Positions 15,826 to 25,249 of a DNA stretch of 64,000 nt are shown in pieces (position 1 is the first letter of the stretch; the number at the start of each line of letters is the position of its first letter). A model generated the notes under the pieces. That model had not been told where the DNA came from. It did no database searches and saw only the letters and a program-made list of their open reading frames with translations. The stretch is taken from contig NZ_JALJWH010000001.1 of the NCBI RefSeq assembly GCF_024168825.1, positions 4,216,001 through 4,280,000 on the forward strand. Reading direction: 5' to 3'. This stretch comes from Paenarthrobacter sp. A20. Lineage in GTDB: Bacteria; Actinomycetota; Actinomycetes; Actinomycetales; Micrococcaceae. The translations under genes and the position numbers were made by a program.

Positions 15826-18519
15826 ATGAAGATGAAAAGACGTGCAAGTGCCCCGTTCGGCCGCAGCCTACTGGCCCGGGCAGGCCTGGCGCTAACGACC
15901 GCCCTCGTAGCGGGCAGCTGCCTTGGTTCGCCGTCATGGGCAGAGTCCTCCGGACCACGACCGGCCCCATCGCCTGAGGCGCAGGAAACAATTCCAGCGC
16001 AGGGACCGCAGCCCGCAGGTGCCGGGCAGCAACAGCCGCTGCCCGCCGTCGAGCCTTCACCCGACATTGCGCCGTTGCCCGCCGATCCCGGTAACGGCTC
16101 CGAGGGACAGCTCCCCAAAGCGCAAGCAATGCCCGGCAACGCACCGGACGCGGAAACGATGAAGGCAGCCATGCGGGCAGCCATCCCGGCAGGCGGCGCG
16201 GAAATGGGACAACGATCCCCCAGGGTCCTGGCAGCGCAACAAAGCAATGGCACCCCGGCAGCTTCAGGCTCACGGGCCATAGGCAGCGCAGTCAGCTCCG
16301 CGGTTTCCATGGCAGCAGATCCGGGCCACTGGCGTCCCACCATCGGCGTCGCCGGACAGGACGTCAGCGCCCACCAACCCAACATCAACTGGCAGAGCCA
16401 ATGGAACCAAGGATCCCGCTGGGCTTACGTCAAGGCATCCGAGGGCAACTACTACCTCAACGAGCAATACACCCAGCAGTACAACGGCTCCCGCAACGTG
16501 GGCATGGTGCGGGGCGCCTATCACTTCGCCATCCCCAATTGGTCATCAGGCGCTGACCAAGCACGGTATTTCGTGGCGAACGGTGGAGGCTGGACGGCCG
16601 ACGGATACACCCTCCCGCCCGTTCTGGACATCGAGTACAACCCGTACGCCGGACGAACCATCAACGGTTTCTACTTCGGCAACACGTGCTACGACATGTC
16701 CAAAGCCCAGTTGGGGCAATGGGCAGCCGACTTTGGCAACACCGTCAAGGCCCTGACCGGCCGCTTCCCTGTCATTTACAGCACCACCGATTGGTGGAAC
16801 ACCTGCGTCGGCAATTCCACCTTCGGAAGCTACCCCTTGTGGATCGCTTCCTACTGGAACAACCCCACAAATTCGCCGGGCTCCATGCCGGCCAGCTGGG
16901 GCGACTACACGATGTGGCAGTACAGCAGCACAGGTCCGTTTGAGGGTGATTCAAACATTTTCAATGGCAGTTATGACCAGCTGCGCACGTTTGCCCGCGG
17001 GGTCTCCTACCCTTCGAATCCGTCCATCAAGTCTGCTGCCGATGTCCTTGCTACGAGCCCGGGCGGACGATTGGACGCCTTCCCTGCAAACGGTTCGGGT
17101 CGAATCACCGGACCTGTCGCCATCGGGTCAGGGTGGTCCGGCGCAAAGTCGCTCTACGTTGTGGACTGGAACCAGGACGGAGTGCAGGACATCCTGTCCC
17201 AATGGTCCGATGGGACGCTAAAGGTATTCCGGGGCGCCCCTGGGGGGTCTTTCTACGCACCCATCCAAGTCGGTTCCGGGTGGCAGGAAATGTCCCTGAC
17301 AGTAGGGTGGTGGAACGCGAAGGATGCCTATCCGGGTGTGATCGGACAGGACTACCTGGGCAATCTGTACCGGTACCCGAACAGCGGCGGTGGAGGACTT
17401 GGAAACGGTGTCTTGATTGGCACCGGATTCAGCGGCCACCAACTCAACCAAATCGACTTCGACGGCGACGGCAACCAGGACATTGTCACACGCACTTCGG
17501 ACGGAACCCTCCGTCTTTTCCGTTCCAATGGCGTCGGCAGCTTCATCAGCGAGCCCGGCAGGGTGATCGGCTCGGGCTGGGGTGGCATGACGGCAGTAAG
17601 CTCGGCAATCAACTTCAATGGAGCAGACTCCCAAGGTCTCCACGCCCGTGCAGCGAACGGCGATCTTTACTACTATCCTGCAGGTTCCGGGTCATGGGGC
17701 AACCGCAGCCTCATAGGGTTGGGGTGGAACGACGCAAGCCTCATCAGTGGTGCCTCACTGGATGTGGAGACAACCCTTGGCATCGACCAGGAAGATGTCC
17801 TGGCGGTCCGTCCGGATGCCAACCTCTACCGTTATCCGGGGACCGGCACCACGGCCCTTTTGCCGGAAGACCTCATCGGAACGGGCTGGGCGGGCTTCAA
17901 AGCAGGGTTTGTCACCGACTGGAACGGCGACGGCGCACTGGACATTGTCGCCCAATGGTCTGACGGCCGGTTAAACGTCTACCCGGGCAGGAACGGCAGC
18001 GGCTTTGGGACGGCGATAGCGTTGGGCAGCAACTGGAAGGGCTGGACCCTGAGCGTAGGCACCTGGAAAAAGGCAGACGCGCACCCCGGAATTGTCGGCT
18101 ATGACTCCGCCGGCCGGCTGTACTACTTCAATAACCCCAGCGGCAAGACCCTTTCCGCGGGGGTCTACATCGGCGTCGGATGGGCCGGCCTGGACATTGC
18201 CCAAATGGACTTCGACAAGGATTCCAATGCTGATCTCCTCGTCAAAACGGGCACCGGGGACCTAAAGCTGTACCGCACTAACGGTACCGGCAACTTCATT
18301 CAGGAAGCTCCAAGCGTTGTGGGTACCGGCTGGAACGTGATTTCCGGATTCGGTGCCGTTCGTGGATTTGCGGGTGCGGGCTCACTCGGCGTCGTTGCAC
18401 GAACCACCATCGGTGAACTGCGCTACTACCCTGTAGGTTCGAACAAGACCTGGGGAACGCCAACCAGGATCGGCACAGGCTGGAGCAACCTCACAATCCT
18501 GGCACCGGCCGCCGGTTAG
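15826..18519 (+). CDS. Secreted GH25 muramidase with VCBS/FG-GAP-like repeats
   Basis: 897 residues. A signal peptide (~1-39, basic start, LALTTALVAGSC, cut near SWA) is followed by a Pro/Ala/Gln-rich linker to ~165. A GH25 lysozyme domain (~170-365) has catalytic-type acids in GQDVSAHQ (D about 178) and VLDIE (D/E about 268 and 270). The C-terminal ~500 residues hold repeated modules of the form IGxGWxGxxxxxxxDxNxDGxxDIxxxxxDGxLxxY, a seven-bladed-like VCBS/FG-GAP array. It probably hydrolyses peptidoglycan outside the cell, in remodelling or against competitors. ATG 15826 is chosen; ATG 15832 is possible. A strong terminator follows. Confidence 0.93.
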   Translation: MKMKRRASAPFGRSLLARAGLALTTALVAGSCLGSPSWAESSGPRPAPSPEAQETIPAQGPQPAGAGQQQPLPAVEPSPDIAPLPADPGNGSEGQLPKAQAMPGNAPDAETMKAAMRAAIPAGGAEMGQRSPRVLAAQQSNGTPAASGSRAIGSAVSSAVSMAADPGHWRPTIGVAGQDVSAHQPNINWQSQWNQGSRWAYVKASEGNYYLNEQYTQQYNGSRNVGMVRGAYHFAIPNWSSGADQARYFVANGGGWTADGYTLPPVLDIEYNPYAGRTINGFYFGNTCYDMSKAQLGQWAADFGNTVKALTGRFPVIYSTTDWWNTCVGNSTFGSYPLWIASYWNNPTNSPGSMPASWGDYTMWQYSSTGPFEGDSNIFNGSYDQLRTFARGVSYPSNPSIKSAADVLATSPGGRLDAFPANGSGRITGPVAIGSGWSGAKSLYVVDWNQDGVQDILSQWSDGTLKVFRGAPGGSFYAPIQVGSGWQEMSLTVGWWNAKDAYPGVIGQDYLGNLYRYPNSGGGGLGNGVLIGTGFSGHQLNQIDFDGDGNQDIVTRTSDGTLRLFRSNGVGSFISEPGRVIGSGWGGMTAVSSAINFNGADSQGLHARAANGDLYYYPAGSGSWGNRSLIGLGWNDASLISGASLDVETTLGIDQEDVLAVRPDANLYRYPGTGTTALLPEDLIGTGWAGFKAGFVTDWNGDGALDIVAQWSDGRLNVYPGRNGSGFGTAIALGSNWKGWTLSVGTWKKADAHPGIVGYDSAGRLYYFNNPSGKTLSAGVYIGVGWAGLDIAQMDFDKDSNADLLVKTGTGDLKLYRTNGTGNFIQEAPSVVGTGWNVISGFGAVRGFAGAGSLGVVARTTIGELRYYPVGSNKTWGTPTRIGTGWSNLTILAPAAG

Positions 18520-18618: not shown

Positions 18619-19965
18619 CTATGCAAGCAAAGCATTCATGGCATTTACCAGTGTGGTCTCCACGCCATTAGTGCCGGCTTTGAAGTGCGCCAAGTGGCCG
18701 TAGACAGTCATCGAACCCCCCGCGATTCCAGGGAAGTCGGGCTCCCATCCACCTTCATAACTGCCCAGAGGCATGAAAGGTGGAAAGAACTCATTGCTTG
18801 GTATATAGCAGCAGGATTCATTTGCATATCCACCGACAATAATACCGTTGGTCCCACCATTTCGGCCGCGAAAATAAGCCGCATAGCCGCTGACGAGTTC
18901 GCCACCGATCATGGCTATCTTCAGCTCCGGGCTGCCATTGAATTTCCACACCTGGAACGGGGACGGTACAGCCGTTTCAAAACTGTTGCTGTCAATGCGT
19001 CCGATCATTACCTGCGCGTGCCGTTGGTACCACTGGGGCTGGCCGTTGGGATTGGCCAGCCTGGCAACGTAGGAAGCACGCACCGCGGCCAGATTTCCGG
19101 CTGTCGGAGTGATATCCAACGGCAGTTGGACTTCCTGGTAGCGCGTCACCATGGGACCGCTGAGGGCACGCCCCGCAGATTGCATGTTCGAATGGACCGT
19201 GGCACCAAGGGCGTCTCCATGCTGGTCCCGGAGTTCCCAGCTGCGGACTCCCCCGGGGTCTTGATCTCCAGCCGGACCCTGCACGAACATCGCGAAACAA
19301 TTCGGATTCCGGTTTTCGATGTAATTGCAGGCGCCTGCAGCAAAATCTCCATCAAAGAGCGTGCGCAGACCTGCACTGATGGGATGGCACCCATAGCTAA
19401 ATATCACGGCAGCCGGCGTACCATTGCCTCGCCTGGCGACGAGAATTGGGACTGCCGTTTCCGTGTATGGCAGTCCCACGCGGTTGGCGGAGAAATTCTG
19501 GGTTGAAACTTTGTAGTCGAAAGTCACTGCCGTTTCATCCGCGTCCAAGGCTTCCCGGGCGAGGTCAACGATGGTGTCTTCAAGATCGGCACTGTAAGAA
19601 CGCACCAAGCCCAAATCCGCCAGCCCGTAAGCCATGAAGGGATGGAGAGTGTCAATCAAGGCGGGCCCATTGTGCGTATGCGTCGCCTGGATCAGGATGT
19701 CGCTGCTCGACCAATCCGCGAGCTCGATGATCCTGTCCCGGATCCGCTGGTGCATGGATCGCGGCAATGCCAGGACATCCAGGCTGATGATGATGTGGGG
19801 ATGGGCGTCTTCCCAGATGAGGATGGCCCGAGCGTACAAGGGCTCGAACGGTGAACTGCTGGTGGCCTCGCGTCCGCCGTCGGTAGAACCATATCCAGCC
19901 ATATACGGATTGGTGCTCAGCGACGGCGTTATGTCAGCGCTTGCAGTTCCTACTCTAAACGCCAT
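18619..19965 (-). CDS. Neutral/alkaline ceramidase-fold protein, probably not a true ceramidase
   Basis: 448 residues matching the N-terminal domain of neutral/alkaline non-lysosomal ceramidases. It opens with RVGTASADITPSL, and has the zinc-site motif T-H-T-H-N-G-P (95-101) and a second His in YGCHPIS (H194). Where characterised ceramidases carry the nucleophilic Ser (G-D/E-V-S-P-N), this protein has G-D-Q-D-P-G (233-238). No signal peptide is visible and the C-terminal domain of true ceramidases is absent. It probably belongs to the wider hydrolase group of this fold with unknown substrate. ATG 19965 has AAGGAG ten bases upstream. Confidence 0.8.
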   Translation of the reverse strand: MAFRVGTASADITPSLSTNPYMAGYGSTDGGREATSSSPFEPLYARAILIWEDAHPHIIISLDVLALPRSMHQRIRDRIIELADWSSSDILIQATHTHNGPALIDTLHPFMAYGLADLGLVRSYSADLEDTIVDLAREALDADETAVTFDYKVSTQNFSANRVGLPYTETAVPILVARRGNGTPAAVIFSYGCHPISAGLRTLFDGDFAAGACNYIENRNPNCFAMFVQGPAGDQDPGGVRSWELRDQHGDALGATVHSNMQSAGRALSGPMVTRYQEVQLPLDITPTAGNLAAVRASYVARLANPNGQPQWYQRHAQVMIGRIDSNSFETAVPSPFQVWKFNGSPELKIAMIGGELVSGYAAYFRGRNGGTNGIIVGGYANESCCYIPSNEFFPPFMPLGSYEGGWEPDFPGIAGGSMTVYGHLAHFKAGTNGVETTLVNAMNALLA

Positions 19966-20178
19966 AAAAGATCACTCCTTGATTGTGCGCAACGGGTGAT
20001 CTTCGTTTGCCCCCAAACAAAGTCAGTTTCCCAAATACGCTGAACAGCCAATACGTGAGACCACCTTCATTAGACCATGTGATCCCGCAGATTTGTGTGG
20101 TTGGTAGCGATGAATATCGCCCTGAAATGCGCCGCCCCGGCTTGAAAAATCAGGGCGGAATCTGCGCCTTCTCCGTGT
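19966..20178. other. Spacer upstream of the ceramidase-like gene
   Basis: 213 bases, more AT-rich than its surroundings. It holds the Shine-Dalgarno and presumably the promoter of the ceramidase-like gene. A weak stem CGCCCTGA/TCAGGGCG (20118-20157, long loop) lies after the lipoprotein stop. No further gene is seen. Confidence 0.5.
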
Positions 20179-20721
20179 CTAGCCAGGCACTGCAGTCTTG
20201 AGCCACCTGGTCAGCAGCGCAGCCTGCGGAGCCAACGGGGCCAACGTCAGTGCGCCCTTCACTACGGGTATCCCGTAGGCCGCGAGTGAGGCTGCCAGTG
20301 TCCTGTGATCGGTACGCGTGCACGCCCTGATGATGAGCAGGCACAGAGCCGACGCTTGGCCGGGAGCCGCACCGGCGGCCACGGCCGCGTTGACGGCAGC
20401 CGTTTCTTCGGGAGTCAGGATGTGCGGTCCACTTCCGACGTAGGCCACCTGGCAGTCCGTGACGTGCATGTACCGCGTGGATGCCCAGACTTCCTCGAGG
20501 CTCGAAAATTTGCCAATCAGGCTGCCGTCTGCCGCAGTACATGTGAATTGGTACCGGATGAGAGGCTCCGGACGCTCAATGGGGACTTTGTCATCATTTG
20601 CGATAACAGGCGCCAAATCGAGTGCGGCTGGTTGGGAAGTATCTACTTTGGTTCCTGAACAACCGGCCAAGGCAAGAGTTGCCACACCGAGTTGAAGAAC
20701 ACTGCGCCTGCGCATGTCCAC
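20179..20721 (-). CDS. Putative lipoprotein A (paralogue of the gene at 20802-21596)
   Basis: 180 residues starting at GTG 20721 (or ATG 20715). The leader reads M-R-R-R-S-V-L-Q-L-G...LALAGC, a lipobox with Cys near residue 21, preceded by a possible twin-arginine stretch. The mature part carries TCTAADGSL, FSSLEEVWASTRY, DCQVAYVGSGPHILTPEE and a C-terminal IRACTRT. These features are shared with the upstream paralogue, including conserved cysteines. The function is unknown; it is likely surface-anchored. Its first ~22 codons and its upstream 80 bases form the left arm of a 190-bp inverted duplication. Confidence 0.72.
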   Translation of the reverse strand: MDMRRRSVLQLGVATLALAGCSGTKVDTSQPAALDLAPVIANDDKVPIERPEPLIRYQFTCTAADGSLIGKFSSLEEVWASTRYMHVTDCQVAYVGSGPHILTPEETAAVNAAVAAGAAPGQASALCLLIIRACTRTDHRTLAASLAAYGIPVVKGALTLAPLAPQAALLTRWLKTAVPG

Positions 20722-20840
20722 CGAGGGATCCCCACTTCATTCGGATGCTCCCCAGCTCCGCATGCATTGGTTATTCGCCCCAAGCCGTTTCCGGCTGCGT
20801 CTTAGTACATCTTCCCCCAAATTCCGCATTTGTCACTAGT
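20650..20840 (+). repeat. Left arm of the ~190-bp inverted duplication
   Basis: This stretch covers the first codons of lipoprotein A, the 80-base spacer and the 3' end of lipoprotein B. Its reverse complement recurs at 21687-21877 with roughly 88% identity by eye. Bases 20715-20782 (68 bp) are identical, then one mismatch, then another 19 identical bases. The spacer is better conserved than the coding ends. A small hairpin (AGCCG/CGGCT) lies inside it. Confidence 0.9.
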
Positions 20841-21596
20841 AAAGTTTTGGCCGGCCTCAAGCTCGACGTTTTTGCCGGCCTCAGGGACTCCTCCGCTGGC
20901 GACGACGGAACCGTCCTGCGCAGCGACGGACCACGTACATTCGCTGGCCAAAGCGCCGGGCTTGACGAGCTGGACTCCGCCGGCTTCCACGGTTTCGCCC
21001 ACTACATGGCTGCCGTCGCCAACCCTCGTACCTTGAGCCCAGCCAGCGATGATTTTCCCCTGCGGCGCGTCCGGACAAAATGCAGCCGCAGCGAGCAACG
21101 TCCCGTGACTTGCCTCCTCGAATCCGCCGGGGCCTGTTTCATCGCTGATGCGCGTGCACAACCGGAGGACATCCTGCATGGCTGCCAGACCATCCTCGGC
21201 TACTGCACCCTGCGGCGCGGCCGTGGAAATAGCTTCAGCTTCGCGGGGCGTTGGAACGAATGGTTCTTCACCTGCGTAGGTGACTTCGCAGGAGTCCATA
21301 CGGGTGTAGTTATTGGCAGCCCAGACCTCCGCGAGGCTCGACAACTGGACTTCCGGCGATGCGTCAAGGCTGGTGCAACGGTAGGAGAAACGACCCGGGT
21401 CGTCGTCGCCTGCTGACGGACCGGGGTCGCCAGTTTCGCGGCTTCCGGGAGCGGACGACGACTGGCTGGGCCCTGCGGTAGCAGTGTCACTACTGGGTGC
21501 CGGCGTACTGTTCCCAGGAGTTGGCTGTGATGAAGGGGCCGTGCAGGCGACCAACAGCATCACCATCGGCATTGCCATCAGCAACATTCTGCGCAT
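20802..21596 (-). CDS. Putative lipoprotein B (paralogue of lipoprotein A)
   Basis: 264 residues from ATG 21596. The signal is MRRMLLMAMPMVMLLVAC with a lipobox Cys near residue 18, followed by a Ser/Pro/Thr-rich linker (~20-65). The folded part has YRCTSLDASPEV, LSSLAEVWAANNYTRMDSC, VTYAGEEPFVPTPRE and LRLCTRI, closely matching lipoprotein A. An extra ~100-residue C-terminal region ends with TSDKCGIWGKMY. The longer frame to 21905 runs through the right repeat arm in reverse and has no lipobox, so it was rejected. It is probably extracytoplasmic; the function is unknown. The next gene in the same direction is lipoprotein A, 80 bases on. Confidence 0.75.
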   Translation of the reverse strand: MRRMLLMAMPMVMLLVACTAPSSQPTPGNSTPAPSSDTATAGPSQSSSAPGSRETGDPGPSAGDDDPGRFSYRCTSLDASPEVQLSSLAEVWAANNYTRMDSCEVTYAGEEPFVPTPREAEAISTAAPQGAVAEDGLAAMQDVLRLCTRISDETGPGGFEEASHGTLLAAAAFCPDAPQGKIIAGWAQGTRVGDGSHVVGETVEAGGVQLVKPGALASECTWSVAAQDGSVVASGGVPEAGKNVELEAGQNFTSDKCGIWGKMY

Positions 21597-21805
21597 TGTG
21601 ACCTCCACCTCAATCGTGCGGTGCGGCGGTTGTGTGGTCAAGACGGACTGCTTGACGCCCCTGAATCCGAGGCCATTCAGGAATGCACTAGTGACAAATG
21701 TGAAAATTGGTGGAAGATGTACGTAGACGCAGCCGGAAACGGCGTGGGGCGAATAACCAATGCATGCGGAGCTGGGGAGCATCCGAATGAAGTGGGGATC
21801 CCTCG
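21597..21805. other. Divergent intergenic region with repeat arm and gene relic
   Basis: 209 bases between lipoprotein B (minus) and the large secreted protein (plus). It contains most of the right repeat arm and a short relic encoding about 15 residues of a lipoprotein B C-terminus. Both promoters should lie here. Confidence 0.6.
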
Positions 21806-21877
21806 GTGGACACGCGCAATCGCAGTGTTCTTCAGCTTGGTTTGGCATGTCTTGCCTTCGCCGGTCGCTCAAGAACC
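21687..21877 (-). repeat. Right arm of the ~190-bp inverted duplication
   Basis: Read on the plus strand, this arm begins with a relic of the lipoprotein B 3' end (TSDKCENWWKMY, no longer stopping in the same place). It then has the conserved spacer and the start of a lipoprotein A-like leader (VDTRNRSVLQLG) that runs into the large FG-GAP gene. The left arm is at 20650-20840. Confidence 0.9.
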
Positions 21878-24800
21878 TCTCATAAGACTCCCCGCCGCAT
21901 TGCACTCAGCAAGGCGGGCGAAGGACGGCAACGCCACAAACTGACGGCAGTTCTGGCCACTGCCAGCCTTGCGACGGCGGCACTCACCGGCGTCCTGACA
22001 GCGGGCCCGGCCTTCGCGGACCAAGCACGCCAGACAGTGGCCACAGGTCTGACCAAAGCCGCAGGAACATTGGTGGACCCGGACGGACGCCTGTGGGTTT
22101 CCGACGCTCGGGCAGGGTTCTGCCGCGTGACGGAGGCTTCGGGCGCAACCGCGGGGGGCCTCGAAACGGACACCTGCCTCGGTGGAACCCTGACTGGTCA
22201 CGACAACGGCCCGGCCTTGGCCGGAACGCCCGCCATGATCGATCCGTCCCCTGCCAACCACGGCGATGGTGACGAAGTGGCCTTCATTCCGGATGCCGCC
22301 GTCGGAAGTTCCGACGTCGTACGGGCCCTGTGGAATCCTGACAATGGCGTATTCGAGTACAACGGCGCGCTAACCATCTTCGACGGCGACCTGAGGCCAA
22401 ATGCCGTCAGCGACGGCCCCGACGGCAACATCTACCTGTCGTTTGCCAACGCCCGGTCAATCGTCAAAATCGTGGATCCCACGGCCCTCCATCCGAGCAT
22501 CGAATCCATCGCTTCGGTCAACTCCAGCTCCCTCAGCCTGGCTGCCACGCACCGCAACAGTGCGGGCAACGTAGTGGTGTATGTCGCAGAAACCACAGGG
22601 TTGACGGTGTTTACGGCACCCGAAGACGGTGTACTGACCAACTTCGTCCCAGCGCCGCTCTATAACGTCGGCAAGCCGACAGCCATCTACTACGACTGGC
22701 AGTCGCCCCTCGTCCTCTACACAGGAACCGGGGTCGGAACCACCACAGCCGATGCCGGGAAGGACACCATCTCCCGCATCGACCTGAGTACGGACACCGT
22801 GGACAACCAGTGGGCCCTGGGCTTCAGCAAGGTCGGCGGCCTGACCATGCGGGACGGCAAACTCCTGGTCATGGAAGACCCGGGACAATTGGATCCTGCC
22901 AAGCCCGCTGAGCGCGGAAGGATGCTCACCCTGGGTGGCGTTGTACCTTCCATCGTCAGCGGTCCGACGGCGGCAAATGGAACCCAAGCGGCCAACCCGG
23001 CGTTCACCAACGACTCCACGCCAACGTTCACTGTTGCTTCAACGCCGCCGGGCGGCGCCCTTGAGTGCAGCCTCCAGTTGAGCACGGCGACGCCGGTCTG
23101 GCAGGTATGCTCCGGCGGCACCTTCACGCCGTCAACGGCTTTGGCCAGCGGCGCTTACACGTTCTCGGTGAGGGCAGCTCCATCAGGCCTTCCCGTATCG
23201 CGGACTTTCACAGTCGACCTGGCCGCACCCAGCGCACCGGTGATCACCTCACCCGCGGCGGGGGCAACCGTCAACGGCGCGCCGGTCCTCGGCGTCACCT
23301 CCGATCCCGATTCGACGTTGTCCTGCTCAGTCGATTCCACGACAACGTTCACCGCCTGCGCCAACGGGCACGTTTTCAATCTCACTACCGCGGGGCAACA
23401 CGTCCTGCGGGTCCGAGCCACGGACATGGCCGGCAACGTCAGCACACTTGCGTCGGTAACCGTAACCGCCGACCTGACCGCGCCCCAGGTATCCATCAGT
23501 TCACCCGCGGAAGGCGCAACTGTCGGCATCTCGCCATCCTTCACCTTCACCTCCACCTCCACGGACATTGCAGGATTCAGGTGCAAGCTCGGCTCCAACG
23601 CCTACACGGCCTGCACATCTCCCAAGGCCTACACGAACGTTCCAAGTGGTCCTGTGACCTTCACGGTGGAAGCCAGGGACAACGCAGGCAACACTTCCAC
23701 GGCTGCAAGGAACGTGACTGTCTTCGCTCCTGACACAGCCCCTCCCGTCGTATCCGTGGATCCGGCCGGAGGAACGTACGGTGCCGGCAAGACCATTGCC
23801 TTGTCAGTCAATGAAGCGGCCACCATCTACGTCACAACCAATGGCACGACGCCGACTACATCGAGTCCGGTTTATTCGGGCCCGATCCCCTTGACGTCGA
23901 TGACCCTGAAGTACTTCGCGCGGGACACCGCAGGAAATTCATCGGCAGTGGTCACGCAGACGTACGTGCTGGACAACACGGCTCCGACCCTGACCGTCAC
24001 TCCCGGGGCAGGGGGCTATGCCTCAGGACAACTGGTCACGATGTCTTCCAGTGAACCGGGAAGCATCTTCTACACAACAGACGGGACAAACCCCGCAACT
24101 ACCGTTTCGGGAACCACCAAGGCCTACACTGCGGCGTTTGCGTTGACTGCCACCACCACCGTAAAGGCCTTGGCCGTGGATGCTTCCGGAAACGTCTCGG
24201 CCGTCACCACGCGCGCCTACACGGTTCTGGATACCACTCCTCCGGTGGTAACTGTGACACCACCCGCTGGCAGCTACCCCGCCAATCAGCAGATCACCCT
24301 CACCGCCAACGAAGCTGGATCCAGCATCTACTTCACCACCAACGGAACGAACCCCACCGCCACAGCGGCCAACAAGTACTCCTCAGCGATCACGCTGACG
24401 GCAGCCATGACGCTGAAGTATTTCGCGGTGGACACCTCCAACAACAGTTCGGGCATCGTCAGCCAGGCCTACACCGTGACAGCCCCACCGGCGAATACCT
24501 GGAAGGACTACACCGGTGATGCAAAGAACGACGTCGTGGCACGCGACAACGGCGGCACGCTGTGGCTGTATCCGGGCAACGGATCCGGGGGTTGGTTGAC
24601 CCAACGCTCCCTGGGAACCGGCTGGAACTCGCTGAATGCCATCGTTCCCACGAAGGACTTCAACGGGGACGGACGCAGCGACGTCCTGGCCCGGGATGCG
24701 AATGGTGTTCTCTGGCTTTACCCGGGCAATGGATCCGGTGGCCTCCAGGCACGCGTCCAGGCGGGGACCGGCTGGGCCGGAATGACGCTCATCCTGGCGC

Positions 24801-25249
24801 CAGGCGACTTCAGCGGTGACGGCAAGGCCGATGTCCTCGCAAGAAACTCGGCAGGCGTCCTGTGGCTCTACCGCGGCAATGGCACAGGCGGCTTCACCTC
24901 AAGCGCCCAAGTTGGTACGGGTTGGAATGCCATGAATGCGATCCTGAGTACCGGCGACTTCAACGGCGACAGCAAGACCGATGTCCTGGCCAGGGACACC
25001 TCAGGAATCCTCTGGCTGTATCCAGGCAACGGCACGGGTGGTTGGCTTAGCCGGGTCCAGGTTGGGAGCGGCTGGAGCGGGATGACGGCCATCCTCGGAC
25101 CGGGCGACTTCAACGGTGACGGCAAGAACGATGTCCTCGCCCGTGACGCCGGTGGCAACTTGTTCCTGTACCCCGGCAACGGAACATCCGGATGGCTCTC
25201 CCGAAGCCAGGTCGGCTGGGGTTGGGGAGGATTCACGTCCCTTCCATAG
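21806..25249 (+). CDS. Large exported multidomain protein: propeller, Ig-like, CHB_HEX_C and FG-GAP repeats
   Basis: 1147 residues from GTG 21806. Residues 1-25 duplicate the leader of lipoprotein A, but the lipobox Cys is Arg (LAFAGR). A better signal peptide lies at ~46-72 (LTAVLATASLATAALTG, cut near AFA). Then follow a propeller-like region (~75-380, DGRLWVSD and DGNIYLSF blades), Ig-like domains (~400-640), three chitobiase/hexosaminidase C-terminal-like repeats (~645-895), and five FG-GAP repeats of exactly 50 residues (~900-1147, consensus DFNGDGKxDVLARDxxGxLW). No enzyme motif or wall anchor is visible. It is probably a secreted adhesive or glycan-binding protein. The leader fusion makes the native start uncertain. 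Confidence 0.85.
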   Translation: MDTRNRSVLQLGLACLAFAGRSRTSHKTPRRIALSKAGEGRQRHKLTAVLATASLATAALTGVLTAGPAFADQARQTVATGLTKAAGTLVDPDGRLWVSDARAGFCRVTEASGATAGGLETDTCLGGTLTGHDNGPALAGTPAMIDPSPANHGDGDEVAFIPDAAVGSSDVVRALWNPDNGVFEYNGALTIFDGDLRPNAVSDGPDGNIYLSFANARSIVKIVDPTALHPSIESIASVNSSSLSLAATHRNSAGNVVVYVAETTGLTVFTAPEDGVLTNFVPAPLYNVGKPTAIYYDWQSPLVLYTGTGVGTTTADAGKDTISRIDLSTDTVDNQWALGFSKVGGLTMRDGKLLVMEDPGQLDPAKPAERGRMLTLGGVVPSIVSGPTAANGTQAANPAFTNDSTPTFTVASTPPGGALECSLQLSTATPVWQVCSGGTFTPSTALASGAYTFSVRAAPSGLPVSRTFTVDLAAPSAPVITSPAAGATVNGAPVLGVTSDPDSTLSCSVDSTTTFTACANGHVFNLTTAGQHVLRVRATDMAGNVSTLASVTVTADLTAPQVSISSPAEGATVGISPSFTFTSTSTDIAGFRCKLGSNAYTACTSPKAYTNVPSGPVTFTVEARDNAGNTSTAARNVTVFAPDTAPPVVSVDPAGGTYGAGKTIALSVNEAATIYVTTNGTTPTTSSPVYSGPIPLTSMTLKYFARDTAGNSSAVVTQTYVLDNTAPTLTVTPGAGGYASGQLVTMSSSEPGSIFYTTDGTNPATTVSGTTKAYTAAFALTATTTVKALAVDASGNVSAVTTRAYTVLDTTPPVVTVTPPAGSYPANQQITLTANEAGSSIYFTTNGTNPTATAANKYSSAITLTAAMTLKYFAVDTSNNSSGIVSQAYTVTAPPANTWKDYTGDAKNDVVARDNGGTLWLYPGNGSGGWLTQRSLGTGWNSLNAIVPTKDFNGDGRSDVLARDANGVLWLYPGNGSGGLQARVQAGTGWAGMTLILAPGDFSGDGKADVLARNSAGVLWLYRGNGTGGFTSSAQVGTGWNAMNAILSTGDFNGDSKTDVLARDTSGILWLYPGNGTGGWLSRVQVGSGWSGMTAILGPGDFNGDGKNDVLARDAGGNLFLYPGNGTSGWLSRSQVGWGWGGFTSLP
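24506..25246 (+). repeat. Five tandem ~150-bp repeats coding FG-GAP units
   Basis: Units begin about 24506, 24656, 24806, 24956 and 25106, all in phase. The shared core is LWLYPGNGxGG, followed by QVGxGW. They also resemble the repeats of the GH25 protein, but at lower identity. Confidence 0.85.

Follow-up and report, generated by a model that had tools for sequence, protein, structure and literature searches.

Why should a short cassette made of two gene ends and a spacer stand twice, in opposite orientations, on the two sides of a single lipoprotein gene? We addressed this question at one locus of Paenarthrobacter sp. A20, within the whole stretch of 64,000 nt of DNA that was analyzed (the window; all positions are counted from its first letter). 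The features of the locus are as follows.

20179..20721, minus strand: lipoprotein A, 180 aa, GTG start, MDMRRRSVLQLG...LAGC; the start is supported by its paralogue A2 in L078, which has ATG at the same place
20802..21596, minus strand: lipoprotein B, 264 aa, with a weak resemblance of its C-terminal region to NCBIfam Rv1352_Rv1906c (24.6 bits against a cut-off of 25)
21806..25249, plus strand: FG-GAP / chitobiase C-terminal / Ig-like protein, 1147 aa, first 24 codons in the right arm
20650..20840, minus strand: left arm, with the last 12 codons and stop of B, the leader and the first 24 codons of A
20831..20836, minus strand: -35-like hexamer GTGACA of the left arm, inside the last codons of B, kept in non-coding copies
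20809..20814, minus strand: -10-like hexamer GAAGAT of the left arm, with A28, A31 and T32 invariant in the 51-row alignment A1
20784..20795, minus strand: predicted 5' hairpin GCCG-GAAA-CGGC of the left arm, GNRA loop in 43/43 aligned rows
20728..20765, minus strand: 38-nt core of the left arm with ribosome-binding G-run, invariant in all 34 two-arm rows
21687..21877, plus strand: right arm, a cassette copy upstream of and into the FG-GAP gene
21691..21696, plus strand: -35-like hexamer GTGACA of the right arm, kept in non-coding copies
21713..21718, plus strand: -10-like hexamer GAAGAT of the right arm, kept in non-coding copies
21732..21743, plus strand: predicted 5' hairpin GCCG-GAAA-CGGC of the right arm, from folding and the GNRA loop
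21762..21799, plus strand: 38-nt core of the right arm, invariant in the 34 two-arm rows

The first-pass annotation had described an inverted duplication here, and local alignment bore it out at the same coordinates: the two arms were identical at 172 of 191 bases, with 19 mismatches and no gaps, and the alignment score of 287 compared with a maximum of 26 across 500 base shuffles. A repeat finder stretched the pair to 209 nt at 87%, and with 14-base seeds the arms were the sole inverted repeat of at least 60 nt within the 64 kb. Each arm runs from the 3' end of B through a spacer into the 5' end of A. This spacer, from the B stop to the A start, was the best-kept section, with only one of its 80 positions differing (20783/21744). 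Selection on the spacer, which the annotation had offered as one option, was supported. In the genome of the strain itself (5.38 Mb, 3 contigs), the arm sequence occurred at two places, both of them here, apart from one 19-nt match; the 22-nt core pattern had two exact matches, one in each arm, and two more with 3 mismatches.

Across the genus, a profile of the leader sequence built from 15 diverse copies, a method whose filters can lose weak matches, located the element in 36 of 206 genomes, 18 with both arms and 18 with one copy, all at this locus. At E up to 0.01 the profile matched 47 genomes, 36 of them strongly (E below 1e-19), the next match having E 0.003. Among seven loci compared, the named relatives include P. 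aurescens TC1 (locus L034, with both arms) and P. nitroguajacolicus. A DNA search over 395 genomes of the family gave matches in only one other genus, g7, in two genomes (G297 and G326); judging from a Sinomonas homologue among the matches of B, g7 is probably Sinomonas. With the left copy of G326 as query, strong matches among 15 g7 genomes came from G326 only. An exact pattern search at the level of the order (396 genomes) returned four genomes of the same genus and one hit to the core in another family (G801), which we rejected as chance, as it falls on the antisense strand of a coding frame that is unrelated. The left arm had no match among plasmid or phage records, and a mobile element with terminal inverted repeats was likewise rejected, since strong matches were confined to this locus in the genome itself and in the 206 genus genomes.

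The arms were conserved well beyond the genes around them. In 15 of the 18 two-arm genomes (L004-L018), mean pairwise conservation was 0.957 for the left arm and 0.961 for the right arm, and it fell off sharply at the arm edges. Within the arms, third codon positions reached 0.970 (B end), 0.894 (A start) and 0.936 (FG-GAP start), compared with 0.488, 0.526 and 0.520, respectively, outside them. In an alignment of 34 arms, 16 distinct ones from the left and 18 from the right, 132 of the 190 columns did not vary, and the longest invariant run was 38 nt, GCATGCGGAGCTGGGGAGCATCCGAATGAAGTGGGGAT. The larger alignment A1 holds 51 of 52 stretches, without one spurious match inside B of L013. Stretches of identical sequence (L011 left, L013 left and L025) were collapsed, with L011 and L013 restored for the pairing permutation described below.

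In the genomes with two arms, A and B share a strand, and the FG-GAP gene is on the opposite one and begins inside the right arm. In contrast, 15 one-copy genomes (ten genomes together with G172, G060, G033, G034 and G023) carry B, A and FG-GAP in line on the same strand, and their only core stands between B and A; at L087, the one junction read, the TGA of A overlaps the ATG that opens the FG-GAP frame. Of the 20 genomes of the genus with the split order, 18 had the element twice, in inverted orientation. The genomes G016 and G087 have the split order and an FG-GAP gene without a core before it; thus, the second core copy is not obligatory. These genomes together provide a natural experiment, with one copy where the two targets share a strand behind the element, usually two inverted copies where they do not, and exceptions that can be compared. 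By eye, the split-order loci without the right element, L022 (the same as L085) and L023 (the same as L086), share another conserved stretch before the FG-GAP start. The one-copy genome G517 had no FG-GAP match in 7.5 kb around B, and the place of the FG-GAP gene beside B (L084:3120-3700) reads by eye like a transposase gene.

The two genomes of the other genus, G297 and G326, are also of the split order; one core precedes A (in G297 a degenerate one) and another precedes FG-GAP. Their right copies lack the flanks from the B end and the A start, which suggests that both genes probably already had the core when, in the two-arm clade, the left flanks were copied to the right. In G326 we also noted a third core (L078:6791-7463), which lies before a second lipoprotein A gene (A2) and is followed by a second ceramidase-like gene.

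The right arm contains the start of the FG-GAP gene. In all 18 two-arm genomes, a stop codon interrupts the FG-GAP frame 18 nt upstream of GTG 21806, and from this GTG onward the frame is open over 300 codons. Within the first 70 codons, the only in-frame ATG, GTG or TTG codons common to the 18 relatives were GTG 21806 and the TTG at codon 13, both of them inside the right arm. The annotation had regarded this arm as fused to another gene; the fusion stands, but the arm is not merely fused, since the shared start codons of FG-GAP are inside it. The copied N-terminus reads V-D-T-R-[NK]-R-S-V-L-Q and is followed by a second hydrophobic stretch (18/18), and in 18/18 this copy has lost two features of the lipoprotein A signal, the twin arginine and the lipobox cysteine. 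Thus, the coding stretch is not kept for signal function, and because the copied signal is broken yet its bases are kept, the constraint appears to act on the nucleic acid.

The outer part of the cassette showed a promoter-like pattern. In L019, L020 and L021, the B gene has no C-terminal region and its stop comes 56-59 nt ahead of GTGACA, so that the start of the arm is non-coding there, and the GTGACA of the cassette is kept. Among the 21 non-coding copies (18 right, 3 left), no column of TAGTGACAAAT had more than one deviating copy and none of GGAAGATG more than two, whereas most columns between the two drift. In the 13 distinct copies that still code for B, the stretch is almost invariant up to the B stop. 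The arrangement of GTGACA, 16 nt and GAAGAT follows the pattern of -35 and -10 boxes, which in housekeeping sigma promoters are 16-18 nt apart, and is a candidate promoter. The -10-like hexamer GAAGAT lacks its first T, and a strict sigma-70 scan found no promoter here (0 found, shuffle mean 0.2). In the right copies of the other genus the -35-like hexamer is missing, and the -10-like hexamer was picked by a pattern.

Downstream of the -10-like box, the main hairpin starts after about 6-10 nt in most distinct leaders, according to predicted folds. Its loop is a GNRA tetraloop in 43 of 43 aligned rows (34 two-arm, 9 collinear), occurring as five different sequences (GAAA, GAGA, GGAA, GCAA and GTAA), and the sole stem change in the aligned set, G-C to A-T in the right arm of L019, is compensated. 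More distant copies have hairpins of other sequence, and the predicted fold of the left copy of L078 differs from the main pattern. The region from the -10-like box to the core folded below the base-shuffle mean in 26 of 26 distinct regions, with p below 0.05 in 12 of the 26; only two of these 12 are among the 14 distinct regions from two-arm leaders, so that the signal in the two-arm leaders by themselves is weak. These shuffles preserved base content, not dinucleotide content. Past the hairpin, the leader showed no consistent structure. The order of core, G-run and start codon is alike in A, A2 and FG-GAP.

Taken together, we consider it likely, from comparison of sequences, that each arm is the same cassette of promoter, 5' leader and start, which would express A from the left copy and FG-GAP from the right copy. 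The putative promoter would overlap the last codons of B on the left and a non-coding copy of them on the right, with transcription predicted to start at about 20798-20806 on the minus strand and 21721-21729 on the plus strand. The 5' leader would open with the short hairpin and continue into the nearly invariant core, including the ribosome-binding site, and the cassette would end in the GTG start and about 24 constrained codons. With lipoprotein A driven by the left copy and the FG-GAP surface protein by the right one, the two genes may stay co-regulated despite lying on opposite strands. We proposed that the repeat is inverted because the co-regulated A and FG-GAP occupy opposite strands. 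The flanks of the right copy would have been copied from the left in an ancestor of the 18 two-arm species and held by selection since. What looked like duplication debris would then be a candidate regulatory element that is conserved more strongly than the surrounding genes and is absent from the RNA family library searched (Rfam).

This proposal resembles promoter capture by duplication at an operon split, in which the regulatory region is copied to the separated gene; the one-strand order B-A-FG-GAP with one copy and the split order with mostly two fit this likeness. Unlike promoter capture, however, the copy here is inverted, takes in parts of both the neighboring gene and the coding region that follows, and has remained near-unchanged as species diverged.

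A more specific reading is that the hairpin, the GCUGGGGAGCAUCC core and the first 24 codons form one regulated leader, a translational RNA switch of a new class. In such a reading the leader would sense a cell-envelope signal and control two surface proteins at once, and, once the genes had come onto two strands, the whole switch would have been copied in inverse, with both copies then frozen by selection. We regard this reading as possible but rather doubtful. Pairing between the core and the coding start, perfect by eye in the right arm, was no better than in 300 synonymous shuffles in most of 19 copies, and we rejected it: in just five of these copies did no more than 25 shuffles do equally well (16 for L004 right, 20 for L015 right, 16 for L017 right, 25 for L019 right and 14 for L023), and the right copy of L079 is to be disregarded in this comparison, having been assigned a wrong start codon. 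Pairing of the core with the ribosome-binding site (anti-RBS) was rejected as well, being inconsistent in 14 copies. As a possible partner, 6C RNA had no match in the genome itself, by a method that detects it in one of 14 control genomes, and there below the cut-off. A search of 19900-22200 against Rfam, at E up to 5, gave two hits below threshold, both of them outside the arms, and the titles and abstract beginnings found in the literature held nothing on this element.

Structured 5' leaders are cis-regulatory RNAs of bacteria that include riboswitches and protein-binding leaders. The locus is like them in having a conserved motif between promoter-like region and ribosome-binding site, a GNRA hairpin, and neighboring genes that share the leader. 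It is unlike them in lacking an Rfam match, in occurring at one locus per genome, and in a constraint that runs into the coding region. Among leader RNAs of actinobacteria, the ANTAR-target RNAs, reported in Arthrobacter, lie near ribosome-binding sites and have two stem-loops with six-base loops carrying A1 and G4 (PMC8164766). Both they and the proposed leader of the cassette lie near a ribosome-binding site, but the loop here is a four-base GNRA and a single hairpin is established.

Alternatively, the arms could be protein-binding DNA sites, an operator common to the two genes, with the RNA-like features incidental. A long invariant DNA core would suit an operator. So would the unremarkable folding of the whole arms, whose predicted RNAs folded no better than dinucleotide shuffles (z 0.19 and 0.01), and the inconsistency of the core structure between groups. 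However, where the hairpin loop varies it still fits the GNRA rule in every aligned row, the only stem change is compensated, and A, A2 and FG-GAP all have the core immediately ahead of their ribosome-binding G-run; thus, we consider the operator unlikely.

The annotation had further envisaged that the arms promote inversion of the 20.8-21.7 kb segment. Homologous recombination between them would flip B and swap the genes that it faces, and the length of the inverted arms, their 90% identity and a 38-nt stretch invariant in 34 rows would be favorable to it; the cassette would stand before A and before FG-GAP in either orientation. The comparison of species did not support such a switch, and we hold it to be very unlikely. 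The orientation of B was constant in all 18 two-arm genomes, the 3' end toward A and the 5' end toward FG-GAP, and the other orientation occurred in none. The arms are also side-specific: mean identity across species was 0.943 between left arms and 0.961 between right arms, and 0.883 between left and right within a genome (0.881 between genomes). For 32 of 32 arms with an alignment partner, the best match was the same-side arm of another genome, and five columns, all on the A-start side, were fully fixed between left and right. Pairing of arms within a genome was no closer than random pairing (permutation, p = 0.23). Two alleles (L015, L017) were shared by the two arms of one genome and by no other arm, and several arms agree with the opposite side at single columns or along short runs, as at three columns of the left arm of L015 and of the right arms of L007 and L008, hinting at no more than possible, rare and short gene conversion between the arms. 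Because some arms carry such other-side runs, the argument rests on gene order and side-specific columns and not on unbroken linkage. The constant orientation of B speaks against frequent inversion over evolutionary time; rare inversion inside a culture or population would be compatible with the gene-order evidence. As in the invertible promoters and segments of phase variation, inverted repeats here flank a segment with a promoter-like region; unlike in those systems, the arms are side-specific across 18 species and the gene order is the same in 18/18. These results indicated that an inverted repeat can keep side-specific arms in many species of one genus, with neither inversion nor homogenization visible.

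It is similarly improbable, in our view, that the element codes for a small peptide, ATGCGNNGCTGGGGAGCATCC = M-R-x-W-G-A-S, acting as an attenuation leader peptide. All 15 diverse copies in alignment A2 keep the ATG and M-R-x-W-G-A-S, and a CGG/CGT change among them is synonymous, but the ATG is missing from the left copy of L079 (outside A2), the frame past codon 7 and the stop vary by eye between groups, and the third positions of W-G-A-S never vary in A2, a constraint stronger than a peptide needs.

Finally, that the right arm is a relic, as first annotated, or more precisely a decaying leftover of a duplication kept similar only through recency or gene conversion, is hardly credible: it does hold a broken C-terminus of B and a lipoprotein signal without its cysteine, and there are two private alleles shared by the arms of one genome, but both arms occur in 18 genomes with B proteins down to 57% identical to the query B, the right arms of these 18 species are on average 0.961 identical compared with 0.883 between left and right within a genome, within-genome pairing adds nothing significant, and third-position conservation drops from 0.936 inside the arm to 0.533 directly after it.

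The promoter, leader and start cassette that we favor lies among genes most of which belong to the cell surface. Lipoproteins A and B are paralogues, with about 29% identity across about 140 residues; among solved structures, lipoprotein B had a single match, LppX at E 0.7, which is not meaningful, and PADLOC gave no hit on four proteins. Profiling of 13 proteins of the locus and neighborhood named none of them a recombinase. The neighbors include T2SSE, T2SSF, a GH25 lysozyme with FG-GAP repeats and a weakly ceramidase-like protein, and further a glycosyltransferase, GlfT2, a UDP-galactopyranose mutase and an FtsK/SpoIIIE-FHA protein. Two large FG-GAP-repeat proteins lie within 10 kb, at 15826-18519 and 21806-25249, one of them with the GH25 lysozyme domain. 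The ceramidase-like neighbor (18619-19965) runs in the direction of A in some two-arm genomes (e.g., L034) and in the opposite direction in others (e.g., L039), and has therefore flipped within the two-arm group.
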